In this document: in pieces, positions 5,351-45,888 of the stretch | Layout: every line of letters starts with the position of its first letter | How positions within the stretch are numbered: position 1 is the stretch's first letter | NCBI RefSeq assembly: GCF_009684755.1 | Contig: NZ_BLBC01000006.1 | Span: 1 to 64,000 of the forward strand | Direction: 5' to 3' | Origin: Capnocytophaga felis | GTDB taxonomy: Bacteria; Bacteroidota; Bacteroidia; Flavobacteriales; Flavobacteriaceae | DNA: 64,000 nucleotides | The notes under the pieces: model-generated | The model's database searches: none | Seen by the model: the letters and a program-made list of their open reading frames with translations, nothing else | Told to the model about the DNA's origin: nothing | Program-made: the position numbers and the translations under genes

Positions 5351-8300
5351 TTAATTATCTTCCATTAAATCAACCTCAAGATGTTGTTCTTCCTCTTCGA
5401 TTTCTTCTTTCTTTTTGGTGATGAGTTTTTCCATTTTCCGGTCATTTAAAACATATAAAACCGATTTTTGGTCTAATTCATCAAGAAATTCTTTAGAAAT
5501 ATCAACTTTTAGCTGTCCATTATCCATATTTAGATGGATGTTCTCTTTAGTATTGTGGATAACAAATGAAATTGGATAGTTTCCGCTATATTTTTCGATA
5601 ATTTCTTTATAACTTTTGATTAAATCTGTTGAAATTTCCTCAATATTTAGATGTAAGGCGATTTTTTTTGAATAATTTTCCAACACATCTTGAAGCACCA
5701 TCATTTGATTGAAAATGATTCGAGGTTCCGATTTTTCGTTACTTTCTTTCTTCTGCCACCCTTCTTTAACTCCGAACTTGCAGAACAGAAACGTTCCTAA
5801 AACCAAATAATTACGGAATTTTAAATAATCATCATTGAACAATTTAAACTCGTGCGAACCGTCGTAATCCTCCAAAACAAATGAAGCCCAGCCTTTACCG
5901 TTTTTTGAGGTGCGATGCTGAACGTCGGTAATCATTCCCGCAACGCTTATTTCTCTGTTAATGAGTGGATAAAGGTCTTGTAATTGACTGAGTGACAGAT
6001 TGCAAAAATTATCTAAAGAATGTTTAAAATCATCAAGTGGATGCCCTGAAATGTAAATTCCGACAACCTCTTTTTCGCGTCGTAATTGCTCCAAATTTCC
6101 CCAAGTTTCGCAATTAGGAATTGTAGGTTCAGGGATTTCTACCTCATTGGTTCCGCCAAAAAGGCTCATTTGTGCAGAATTTTTACTTTCTTGATATTTA
6201 TTTCCAAAGCGAATGGCCTTTTCCAGAAAAGGAACTCCATCTGCTTCAGTATGAAAATATTGGGCTCGATGTACTTTTGTGAAAGAATCAAAACCTCCAG
6301 CCAAAGCGATGTTTTCAAAGGCTTTTTTGTTGATATTTTTGTAATCGACACGTTTAGCCAAATCAAAAATAGAGGTGTAATTTCCGTCTTTTCGATGTGA
6401 AACAATGGTGTCCACCGCATTTTTCCCCACGCCTTTAATAGCCCCCATTCCAAAGCGAATATTACCGTCCTTATTTACCGTAAATTTGTAAAATGATTCG
6501 TTTACATCAGGGCTTAACACTTTGATTCCCATACGTTGGCATTCTTCCAAGAAGAAAGAAACTTGCTTGATGTCGTTCATATTATTGGAAAGCACTGCAG
6601 CCATAAATTCCGCCGGATAGTTGGCTTTTAAGTAAGCAGTTTGGTAAGCAATCCACGCATAACAAGTAGAGTGCGATTTGTTAAAAGCGTAACTTGCAAA
6701 AGCTTCCCAGTCTTTCCAAATTTTTTCCAAAACATCGGCAGGATGTCCGTTTTTGATTCCTCCTTCCACGAATTTGGGTTTTAGCTTTTCAAGCAAGGCG
6801 AAAATCTTTTTTCCCATTGCCTTACGGAGCATATCGGCATCACCTTTGGAAAATCCTGCCAACTTCTGCGAGAGCAACATCACTTGCTCCTGATACACGG
6901 TAATTCCGTAAGTTTCTTTTAAGTATTCTTCCATCGCATCAAGGTCATACACAATGGGTTCCGTGCCATGTTTTCGCTTAATAAAACTCGGAATATACTC
7001 CAGCGGACCTGGCCGGTACAAAGCATTCATCGCAATCAAATCGGCAAAAACAGTGGGTTTGAGCTCACGCATATATTTTTGCATTCCGGGCGACTCGTAT
7101 TGGAAAATCCCCACAGTTTCACCACGTTGGAAGAGCTCGTATGTTTTTTTATCGTCAATCGGAATTTCATCCGGATTGATTTCTATGCCGTTACGTCTTT
7201 TGATGAGTTCAATCGAATCTTTAATAAGTGTAAGGGTTTTCAGCCCCAAGAAGTCCATTTTCAGTAGTCCGGCACTTTCAACGACAGAGTTATCAAACTG
7301 AGTTACAAATAAATCCGAATCTTTAGCGACCGAAACAGGTACAAAATTGGTGATGTCGTCAGGCGTGATGATAACCCCACAGGCGTGAATTCCCGTATTT
7401 CGGACAGAACCTTCCAGAACTTGAGCTTGTTGCAGTGTTTCGGCGGCTAAATCCGTTCCTTCGGCTATCTGTTTGAGTTCGTGTACTTTCGGAAGCTCAT
7501 CGGAACGTAGTTTTTCTTTCAGTTGCTTATCATCCATACCGAAAATTTTCGCCAATTTCATATTTGGCACGAGTTTGGCAATTCTGTCCGATTCGTGCAA
7601 AGGCAAATCCAGCACACGGGCAGTATCTCGAATGGAGGATTTTGCCGCCATCGTTCCGTAAGTGATGATTTGTGCAACCTGATTTTTTCCGTATTTATTG
7701 ATAACGTAATCCATTACTAATGAGCGTCCTTCGTCATCAAAGTCGATATCAATATCGGGCATACTAACGCGGTCAGGATTGAGGAAACGCTCAAAAAGCA
7801 AATCGTATTTTATAGGGTCTATATTGGTGATTCCGAGGCAATAAGCCACAGCCGAACCCGCTGCCGAACCCCTTCCCGGACCTACGGAAACGCCCATTTC
7901 CCGAGCCGCTGCGATAAAGTCCTGAACGATAAGGAAATATCCCGGGTAACCCGTTTTTTCGATAATCATCAATTCAAAATCCAATCGTTCGATAACTTCT
8001 TCTGAAAGAGGTAGTTCGTAACGTTTTTCAGCACCAAGATAGGTCAAATGTCTGAGATATTTGTTTTCTCCTTTTTTTCCGTCAGGGTCGTCTTCTACTA
8101 AAAAATCATTCGGAATTTGAAATTTTGGCAATAAAACCTCGCGAGCCAAGTTATAAATTTCAATTTTATCAATGATTTCTTGAATATTTAAAATGGCTTC
8201 AGGAATATCCTTAAACAAGTTTTTCATTTGTTCGGCGGATTTGTAATAATATTCCTGATTGGGCATCCCGAAGCGATATCCACGACCTCTTCCGATAGGA

Positions 8301-12174: not shown

Positions 12175-12190
12175 TTTAGATAAATCTAAA
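12175..12190. promoter_or_regulatory. Perfect palindrome in the sod promoter (putative operator)
   Basis: TTTAGAT, two bases, then ATCTAAA form a perfect 7-bp inverted repeat lying between the probable -33 T-run (12171-12177) and the -7 box (12195-12202). A repressor bound here would block RNA polymerase. An extra ATCTAAA half-site follows at 12206-12212. The shape resembles sites of metal-dependent DtxR/MntR-type repressors, but the regulator is not identified here. Confidence 0.6.
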
Positions 12191-42652: not shown

Positions 42653-44287
<1,635 letters not shown>

Positions 44288-44299
44288 AGGGTTGTGTTA

Positions 44300-44419
44300 T
44301 AAAAAGTATGATTGAGGTTATGATTGTCAGGCTGAGCGTAGTCGAAGCCTTGTAATGATAACGCTTCGACTACGCTCAGCCTGACAAAAACACTTTTTTT
44401 AAAGGCATCATACTTTTTA
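44300..44419. repeat. Nested perfect inverted repeats after the ABC-F gene
   Basis: An inner stem of 25 bp, perfect (44324-44348 and 44363-44387), encloses a 14-base loop. Its core reads GCTGAGCGTAGTCGAAGC. An outer, separate 13-bp perfect pair (44300-44312 and 44407-44419), TAAAAAGTATGAT with its complement, surrounds it with 11 and 19 unpaired bases between. The inner stem is much richer in G and C than its surroundings. The structure could be a miniature mobile element or a repetitive extragenic palindrome; no target-site duplication is certain. Confidence 0.85.
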
Positions 44420-44470
44420 CATCACTTCCAATAAAAGTTTTCAAAGGCTAAAAAATAATTACGATAAACG

Positions 44471-44505
44471 ACTCCGAATGCATTTTTTGTGTTCGGAGTT
44501 TTTTT
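44471..44505 (+). terminator. Intrinsic terminator before the 21-bp array
   Basis: ACTCCGAA (44471-44478) and TTCGGAGT (44492-44499) form a stem followed by a run of seven T. It should end transcription from the ABC-F side. Confidence 0.85.
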
Positions 44506-44519
44506 GTTTCTGTTTTGAA

Positions 44520-45053
44520 AATCTAAAAAAGCAAAAAAAGAATTTAAAAAAGCAAAAAGATAGATTACGTAATCTAAAATATTGTCATCAGAACCTAAAA
44601 AATAAATTCAGGAAGCTAAATTATTATTATCAGAAGCTAAAATATTGCTTCTTGAATTTAAAAAATAGTCATCGTAATCCAAAATATTGTCATCAGAACC
44701 TAAATTATTGCTTCTTGAATCTAAAAAATAGTCATCATAATCTAAAATATTGTTTTCAGAACCTAAAAAATAAATTCCTGAAGCTAAAATATTGTCTTCA
44801 GAATCTAAAAAATTATTTCTGTAATTTAAAATTTAGTTATTGGAAGCTAAAAAATAAATTCCATAACCTAAAAAATAGCTTTCGAAAGCTAAATTATTGT
44901 CTTCAGAATCTAAAAAATTACTTCTGTAATTTAAAATTTAGTCATTAGAACCTAAAATATTGCTTTTTGAATTTAAAAAATAATCATCGAAATCTAAAAT
45001 TTAATCATTAGAATCTAAAAAATAAATTTCAGAAGCTAAAATATTGCTTTCAT
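44520..45053. repeat. Degenerate 21-bp tandem repeat array, 25 units
   Basis: Twenty-five units of exactly 21 bp are arranged head to tail, with one 9-bp partial unit after the second (534 bp in total). The conserved core is AAnCTAAAA followed by a variable half that usually ends in TCAG, TTG or a similar triplet. An A-tract recurs every 21 bp, which is two helical turns, so the DNA should be intrinsically curved. Higher-order copies of three units (63 bp) are visible: units 13-15 match 18-20, and 6-8 match 9-11. A plus-strand frame reads the first 20 units as NLKxxxx heptads, but its ATG (44478) lies inside the terminator before the array and the codon variation is not synonymous, so I do not call it a gene. 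Confidence 0.9.
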
Positions 45054-45086
45054 TCAGTTTTTATCTTTAAAATTATAAAATAAAAA

Positions 45087-45113
45087 AGGTTATCAATTCA
45101 AAACTGATAACCT
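45087..45113 (-). terminator. Terminator of the DUF4595-like lipoprotein gene
   Basis: AGGTTATCA and TGATAACCT arms; on the minus strand a T-run follows directly. Confidence 0.8.
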
Positions 45114-45135
45114 CTTCTTTATTTTGATATTTTAT

Positions 45136-45888
45136 TTAGTAATTAATTTCGAACGTAGTTACGTATTTTTCTTTATCGTGGGTATTTTCGTAGTTTTCAG
45201 TAATTTTTGTAACATAGCCTTCTTTATCGAATTCATATTCGTAAGAATAGGAATATCTGTCAGAAGAGACTTGAGTAGGAAGCATTTCTGAGCTTTTTCC
45301 CGTAGGAAAAGGTAAACAAAGTAAAAACATTTTATTATAAGAAAAACGATTTAATAAAATGAATGAAAAATTATTTTTATTACTATGCTTACCGTATTCA
45401 ATTCTTACATCAGGATTATTTTTGTCTCCTAAAGCTACAAAATTGCCATTTTCCCAATGATAATTATATATTTCATCTTTATCAATGGTTCCTTTGCCTG
45501 CTTTTTTAGTTTCTTGAACTAATTGATTGTCAGTATTGTATTTATATTCGTAGTTTTTCTCGGAAGATTCTATTCTTGTCAAGGAAACAACGTTTCCTTT
45601 TTCATTGATTGTTGCTGATATCTTAAATTTTTCAATTTCAATCTTATCTTTTTGGTAAGATACGTCAAACGAATTAGCGATTTTAGTGATTTTATTTTCT
45701 TTATTGTAGGTGTAATGAATTATAGCATCTTTTAAATTTTCTTCTCCGCCGTTGATTTTTACTGACTTAATAAGTTTTTCAGAAGTTGAAGCATTTTCAT
45801 TAGGTTTTGGACTATCAGTATCTTTTCCGCAAGAAATAGTGGTTAATAATACTACCAAAAGAATCATTTTCAAAACATTTTTTTTCAT
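45136..45888 (-). CDS. DUF4595-like lipoprotein
   Basis: The 250-residue protein has a lipobox (TTISC, Cys20) followed by GKDTDSPKPNE, resembling the lysine-acidic surface-export signal described for Capnocytophaga lipoproteins. The body consists of repeated Tyr-rich strands such as IIHYTYNKENKITKI, NYEYKYNTDNQLVQE and SYSYEYEFDKEGYVTKI, as in DUF4595 and RHS-like proteins. Function is unknown; surface exposure is inferred. It is bracketed by its own promoter and terminator. Confidence 0.75.
   Translation of the reverse strand: MKKNVLKMILLVVLLTTISCGKDTDSPKPNENASTSEKLIKSVKINGGEENLKDAIIHYTYNKENKITKIANSFDVSYQKDKIEIEKFKISATINEKGNVVSLTRIESSEKNYEYKYNTDNQLVQETKKAGKGTIDKDEIYNYHWENGNFVALGDKNNPDVRIEYGKHSNKNNFSFILLNRFSYNKMFLLCLPFPTGKSSEMLPTQVSSDRYSYSYEYEFDKEGYVTKITENYENTHDKEKYVTTFEINY

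Follow-up and report, generated by a model that had tools for sequence, protein, structure and literature searches.

Bacterial minisatellites are usually taken to be neutral or mobile DNA. Other kinds of short bacterial repeats include the iterons of plasmid origins, which are direct repeats of ~19-22 bp, near two helical turns, whose proteins bind one face of the DNA, and the REP/BIME elements of enterobacteria, which are dispersed, intergenic, partly palindromic units that sometimes stand in rows. The nearest published kind that we found for the array considered here is BrickBuilt of Porphyromonas gingivalis. Its report (PMC4596501) describes a minisatellite/MITE of tandem 23-nt units without spacers, numbering from 1 to 22.8, that is intergenic with 19 copies in one genome, has a limited host range, carries a leader and a tail whose terminal inverted repeats resemble those of ISPg elements, and is reported to contain promoter elements.

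We observe in Capnocytophaga a dispersed family of intergenic arrays with a 21-bp unit, for which we found no description in the open-access literature as judged by titles and abstract openings. Like BrickBuilt, the Capnocytophaga arrays are also short tandem units of a Bacteroidota genus, without spacers, intergenic and dispersed; however, their unit is 21 bp rather than 23 nt and they have no common leader or tail in flanks of 120 or 400 bp. Like iterons, they are two-turn direct repeats in one register, but they lie at several chromosomal places per genome. When nine neighbour proteins were compared with Pfam, seven matched, none of them a replication initiator, and two had no match. The units share with REP/BIME elements their dispersed, intergenic and partly palindromic character, whereas the array-bearing Capnocytophaga have no RAYT gene, the arms of the unit pair no better than shuffled arms, and the unit is smaller. 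A further likeness, in appearance, is found in Parabacteroides acidifaciens 426-9 (L270-L276), where seven apparently intergenic rows of GAAACTWWAGTTTC palindromes have many 21-22-bp steps, with arms and a TAAA core similar to those of the Capnocytophaga units, but also some steps of 27-31 bp and composite copies with repeating spacers. The palindrome pattern tested for this species occurred in 1 of 395 Bacteroidota genomes.

The array was found in a window of 64,000 nucleotides of Capnocytophaga felis DNA, by which we mean the whole stretch that was analysed. The array and its surroundings comprise the following features.

44521..45045, + strand: the whole 21-bp array, 25 units, by direct reading, TRF, lag identity and chaining scan
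44521..44562, + strand: two degenerate A-rich edge units (the first two rows), by row reading
44563..45045, + strand: 23 clean units, with a per-unit consensus of about GNTTYYRRAANC + TAAAATATT
42665..44287, + strand: ABC transporter-type ATPase gene (ABC-F by reading), the left neighbour, context only
44470..44508, + strand: left terminator-like hairpin after the ABC-F gene, with its T tail (hairpin 44470-44500)
45072..45118, - strand: right terminator-like hairpin after the convergent gene, with its tail (hairpin 45118-45082)
45136..45888, - strand: lipoprotein-like gene (by reading), the convergent right neighbour, without Pfam match, context only

The preliminary description had reported 25 head-to-tail units of 21 bp, and this reading is confirmed. 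Self-identity of the array at lags of 21, 42, 63 and 105 is 0.61, 0.66, 0.68 and 0.71, whereas 500 first-order Markov sequences reached no more than 0.45 at any lag from 15 to 69. TRF returned periods of 21, 42, 63 and 105, and a chaining scan, in which step lengths could range from 15 to 31 bp, gave 21 bp for all 24 steps. Of the 25 units 23 are clean, while the first two rows are degenerate; a similar A-rich edge variant is also present in the array beside polA. The statement that every unit has CTAAAA or CTAAAAAA was too strong, with CTAAA in 18 of the 23 clean rows (CTAAAA in 15, CTAAAT in 3) and the remaining five reading TTTAAA (4) or CCAAAA (1). As described, the array occupies a gap of ~850 bp, measured from stop to stop, and is closely flanked by two terminator-like hairpins, the left one being conserved in genome G019. 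It had also been linked with a palindrome at sod through the shared half-site ATCTAAA. We find no support for this link and reject it, since ATCTAAA occurs in the window at chance frequency (26 observed against 23.6 expected, eight of the 26 inside the array) and no column of the unit varies more than the base preceding CTAAA (1.83 bits). The palindrome itself, TTTAGATAAATCTAAA at window positions 12175-12190, which the earlier reader assigned to sod, is the sole window match of TTTAGATN{0,6}ATCTAAA, with 0.01 expected by chance.

Several other features lie near the arrays of this genome. By eye, a MITE-like element occurs at window positions 44292-44430 and at ~6357-6512 of locus L009; its ends resemble GTGTTATAAAAAGTATGAT, and its interior contains a palindrome around TCAGGCTGAGCGTAGTCGAAG. 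These two copies, each beside an array of the window genome, are 75% identical over 161 bp; the element is present in G019 and was not seen next to the orthologous array of G002. A sub-threshold Rfam match to Aggregatibacter sRNA 41 at 44319-44502 (35.5 bits, where the gathering score is 97) overlaps both the MITE-like element and the left terminator. At L009 4159-4191, between co-directional genes, we noted by eye a terminator-like hairpin with A/T-rich flanks, GATTCCGAAAGC-N9-GCCTTCGGAATC, in which a 9-bp A/T block separates two inverted arms of the array type. Sigma-70-like matches are as frequent as in shuffles (7 against 5.9), but promoters of Bacteroidota differ from the sigma-70 type.

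With the window array as a DNA query we found further places in its own genome (contigs C26 and C13), and BLAST matched 9 of 20 genus genomes, three of them (G003, G014 and G016) weakly, at 41-44 bits. A sequence profile made from 40 of 43 selected triple units gave matches at E≤0.001 in 7 of the 20 genomes, strong ones in six (G000, G002, G005, G009, G013 and G019), and in G012 a single match at 7.6e-4 where the chaining scan finds no array. The profile search, with at most 150 candidates scored per genome, thus shows no strong array in 14 of the 20. At the family level, with 26 candidates scored per genome, 20 of 199 genomes had a match at E≤0.001; outside the genus the best E was 2.8e-6 and the rest were 2.6e-5 or weaker, against 1e-12 and 4e-14 for the two members of the genus in this sample. 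The strongest non-genus match was in G054, whose loci L067 and L095 were inspected and contain no array. A pattern match also located an array of the same kind on scaffold NZ_KB900738.1 of Capnocytophaga cynodegmi DSM 19736. Among the matches listed for the triple-unit pattern in genome contigs and viruses, 132 loci were inspected (L096-L213; 14 viral, L214-L227), and 119 of these were heptamer (7-bp) repeats. The heptamer repeats have a CTAAA motif and include many from Flavobacterium and several from cyanobacteria. Repeats with 21-bp steps were also seen in Treponema/Spirochaetaceae MAGs (L107/L277, L278, L209 and L212), some of them open in at least one frame; those at L107, L209 and L212 may be coding.

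The arrays are located between ORFs of at least 70 codons, i.e. they are intergenic, where any ORF overlapping an array by >30% of its own length was treated as a translation of the repeat and excluded. Their neighbours (htpG, COX1, OsmC and TrkA named from Pfam, polA by reading) are found in all three arrangements. They are convergent at the window site with its orthologues and at C13 1429-1722; divergent in G002 and G005 on the far side of the lipoprotein-like gene; and co-directional around polA and htpG, in the gap between the COX1-type and OsmC-type genes of G002, beside trkA in G013 and, by sequence likeness, in G009. Two to four arrays lie within ~5 kb in the htpG/polA region of G000, G002, G005 and G019. 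On the 2.41-Mb chromosome of G002, with dnaA at the start, arrays are found at 198 kb, 1.17 Mb and 2.08 Mb, and the distance to dnaA varies among the arrays of the four genomes looked at. The ABC-F gene itself is present in 20 of 20 genus genomes, and the sister genome G016 has the identical gene order and convergent neighbour with a gap of 194 bp and no array. At the same locus G003 has one unit-like stretch and a different neighbour, and more distant species have other neighbours and gaps mostly <200 bp. Since the sister species has no array at the orthologous place, the array is dispensable. Together with the variable distance to dnaA and the three gene orientations, this does not support the fixed domain boundary that had been suggested.

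To describe the unit we used 113 distinct units in a single orientation. A core of 12 bp, similar to GNTTYYRRAANC, and an A/T block of 9 bp make up the unit, and their axes are separated by one helical turn (10.5 bp). Conservation is uneven, with column entropies ranging from 0.07 to 1.83 bits: columns 9, 10, 14, 15 and 16 are 92-99% A (column 9 at 99%), column 20 is 93% T, column 12 is 87% C and column 1 is 79% G. Columns 2 and 11, by contrast, vary almost freely (1.73 and 1.83 bits). Among 21 axis pairs compared by base complementarity, 6.5/17 ranks first (r 0.64, next 0.41). This result could be biased towards symmetry, since the 40 of 43 triples that supplied the units had been selected by a matrix trained on both strands. 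The first symmetry that we computed was rejected as an artefact of such training and redone on one strand, because a symmetric matrix trained on both strands is no evidence of symmetry. The mirror correlation of column entropy is 0.58 at axis 6.5/17 and is not the best, 0.64 being reached elsewhere. In 10 of 11 single arrays, at least 5% of the column-permuted controls have a palindrome correlation as high as that of the array itself, and L009 alone stands out (4 of 500 controls); shift 12, with the axis as in the pooled units, is the best in 11 of 11. The unit also has polarity, as the commonest left arm, GTCATC, is absent from the 14 commonest right arms.

Partly palindromic units could form hairpins, and one reading is that the array is an RNA element whose transcript folds into repeated hairpins. 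None of 100 dinucleotide shuffles folds as well as the + strand (z -3.2), but folding is within reach of any partly palindromic repeat, and the - strand is unremarkable (z -0.99). The arms do not covary across the core, where 2471 of 5000 within-array shuffles were at least as good, nor across the A/T block, where 4909 of 5000 were and the arms pair worse than shuffled ones (10 arrays, 116 units). Because the arms pair no better than shuffled arms, no hairpin is kept, and we rejected RNA hairpins as scarcely credible despite the folding of the + strand. Rfam over 43900-45400 gave four matches up to E 1, all below the gathering score. A lack of arm covariation is as expected for half-sites read one by one.

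A unit of 21 bp could also be seven codons of a repeat-containing protein or of its relic. One of the forward frames is open for 156 codons (44478-44948), and of 12 arrays three (273, 189 and 168 bp) are free of stops in a forward frame and one (105 bp) in a reverse frame. However, the 156-codon ORF starts within the terminator-like hairpin, the best frame of the main array contains stops in G000 (2), G019 (2), G002 (3) and G005 (1), and the best frame and strand vary between arrays. The three codon phases have entropies of 0.80, 1.16 and 0.82, each with some columns <0.5 bit, and 3-bp indels are absent from the aligned array pairs. With the stops, the shifting frames, the codon-phase entropy and the absence of 3-bp indels we reject a coding repeat, which we regard as extremely improbable.

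The 21-bp spacing is kept in related Capnocytophaga species, the check that the preliminary description had proposed. In the chaining scan, which charged 8 bits per off-grid step and began a new array at larger breaks, arrays were found in 12 of 24 sources (the window and 23 loci). The 19 arrays of G000, G002, G005 and G019, orthologous arrays included, contain 183 units, and 164 of 164 steps are 21 bp; steps of 22 bp make up 3 of 11 in C. ochracea (G009) and 1 of 5 in G013. Orthologous arrays differ in internal length by 105 bp between G000 and G019 and by 21, 21 and 105 bp between G002 and G005. The polA-side arrays of G000 and G019 are equally long (336 bp each) and align without a gap, at 42 mismatches. 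For the G000/G019 array that differs in length, BLAST places six gaps of 3 to 42 bp where an affine alignment needs one of 105 bp. Whole-unit changes prove nothing alone because recombination between units yields them, and the informative signal is the shortage of off-grid indels. Across 966 aligned sites, three orthologous array pairs show 73 substitutions and 0 off-grid indels inside, with terminal gaps excluded from the count. Ordinary intergenic DNA of G000/G019 has 83 indels and 429 substitutions over 4410 sites, from which 14.1 (per substitution) to 18.2 (per site) indels are expected in the arrays, the G000/G019 rate being applied to G002/G005 too, and the Poisson probability of none is 7e-7 to 1e-8. 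When G002 and G005 were aligned with flanks, a 1-bp gap appeared in the degenerate A-rich left edge unit and further 1-bp gaps outside the arrays; with the edge indel included, the single event is well short of the 14 or more expected, and the probability of 0 or 1, worked by hand with the same means, is ~1e-5 to 2e-7. The pair G000/G002 (337 matches, 104 mismatches, gaps of 7, 14, 9 and 11 bp) was left uncounted because its units cannot be paired one to one. Substitutions fell on 5 of 276 sites in columns 9, 10, 14, 15, 16 and 20 and on 68 of 690 elsewhere, a partly circular test, as these units had also served to define the conserved columns and exchange moves only existing variants. Because units exchange variants, the substitution count and the column test are also partly dependent. 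The earlier observation that length is kept while bases drift is thus upheld, and the spacing of the arrays is probably under selection.

The main rival to selected spacing is a neutral minisatellite, i.e. a 21-bp unit of single origin that gains and loses copies by unequal recombination, spreads to nearby gaps and has no function, its columns seeming conserved since the units copy one another. Whole-unit length changes, swapped half-site variants, presence and absence between sister species, the clustering of arrays around htpG/polA and the lack of a preferred gene orientation all fit this reading, and bacterial minisatellites are known, BrickBuilt among them. Copying, however, should treat substitutions and 1-bp indels equally, yet 73 substitutions are accompanied by no off-grid indel within the arrays and by one at an edge, against an expectation of 14-18, in DNA that is rich in A runs. 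Copying also leaves unexplained that column 11 is near random while column 9 is almost invariably A. We regard a neutral origin as a real possibility, although on the unlikely side.

The arrays could alternatively be remnants of mobile DNA, either a MITE with an inner minisatellite or REP/BIME elements moved by a RAYT transposase. In favor of this, the units are dispersed, intergenic and partly palindromic, a MITE-borne minisatellite is known in P. gingivalis (BrickBuilt), and the separate MITE-like repeat lies beside two arrays of the window genome. However, no leader or tail is common to the loci (120-bp flanks of 16 of 21 arrays; 400-bp flanks of 12), and the flank matches that we found are orthologous flanks, the MITE-like repeat and a few short stretches. 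Y1_Tnp (PF01797) was detected in the E. coli positive control and in 2 of 20 genus genomes (G016 and G017), but in none of the six genomes with strong arrays, and we rejected a RAYT/REP system for lack of a Y1 transposase there. The mobile reading is largely refuted and we give it very little credence.

A further property of the array is predicted curvature, which we computed with two models, a 16-wedge model (model 1) and an AA-wedge model (model 2). The A-tracts are in phase with the helix, though this is non-specific, as random AT-rich 21-bp arrays are often phased too. Under model 1 the ratio of end-to-end distance to contour length of the array is 0.18 against a window mean of 0.73, with 0.3% of segments as low, and among periods 17-26 a strong bend arises at period 21 only. 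The ratio is below the Markov mean in 12 of 13 arrays computed. These values favor a reading in which the bend itself is selected through phased A-tracts, without a sequence-specific protein. So does the finding that column order matters to the bend in two G002 arrays: in column permutations under model 1 (seven arrays, 150 each), 10, 4.7, 0.7, 0, 25, 29 and 16% were as bent, the two G002 arrays being those at 0 to 0.7% and others reaching 25-29%. Against this reading, 11% (model 1) and 59% (model 2) of 300 random AT-rich 21-bp tandem arrays are equally bent. The array is also not extreme under model 2, where its ratio is 0.39 and 6% of window segments reach this value, some members of the family scarcely bend (G005_C36 0.69, G019_1909 0.71, G000_C13a 0.94), and curvature leaves the conserved C12 and G1 unexplained. 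The strong intrinsic curvature put forward in the preliminary description is therefore found as a prediction, but it is weak evidence, and the random-array controls rule it out as proof of selection. As modeled, the bend is likely to be physical and may be a by-product; that selection acts on the bend itself we consider improbable.

The reading that we favor, in which we place about as much trust as doubt, is that the arrays are dispensable and minisatellite-like, with spacing under selection, probably because they are side-by-side sites for a putative protein. Each 21-bp unit would be a pair of imperfect dyads, and because the dyads are 10.5 bp apart, equivalent positions would fall on one helix face along the array. 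Arrays gain or lose whole units, presumably by slippage or unequal recombination, and the array alignments suggest that half-site variants have been swapped between units. Purifying selection would hold the unit length and the columns that define the face (AA at 9-10, AAA at 14-16, T20, C12 and G1). A putative DNA-binding protein, probably dimeric or oligomerizing and of the nucleoid-associated or operator-array type, would align along this face and read the arms one by one, and the curvature that follows from the phase would help it to wrap or condense the DNA. As guesses, the bound array might serve in local silencing, in insulation or as a storage site for the protein. One-face protein sites every two turns fit the data because length and face bases are held, the rest drifts and the element may be missing. 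From the interpretation first given to the array, the kept spacing remains, and a putative array of protein sites is the best functional reading, while the domain boundary and the sod link fall away.

More tentatively, and rather doubtfully, the arrays may represent a new bacterial chromatin site, a lattice of dyads at two-turn intervals that grows and shrinks by whole units and on which a candidate nucleoid protein would assemble as a filament or wrap on one face; selection would act less on the letters than on helical register. In the Capnocytophaga arrays register can be measured apart from sequence, and it appears to be constrained. Should a protein be responsible, they would be a direct bait for a Bacteroidota architectural protein; if there is no protein, they would be a clean case of a satellite period that is kept without selection.
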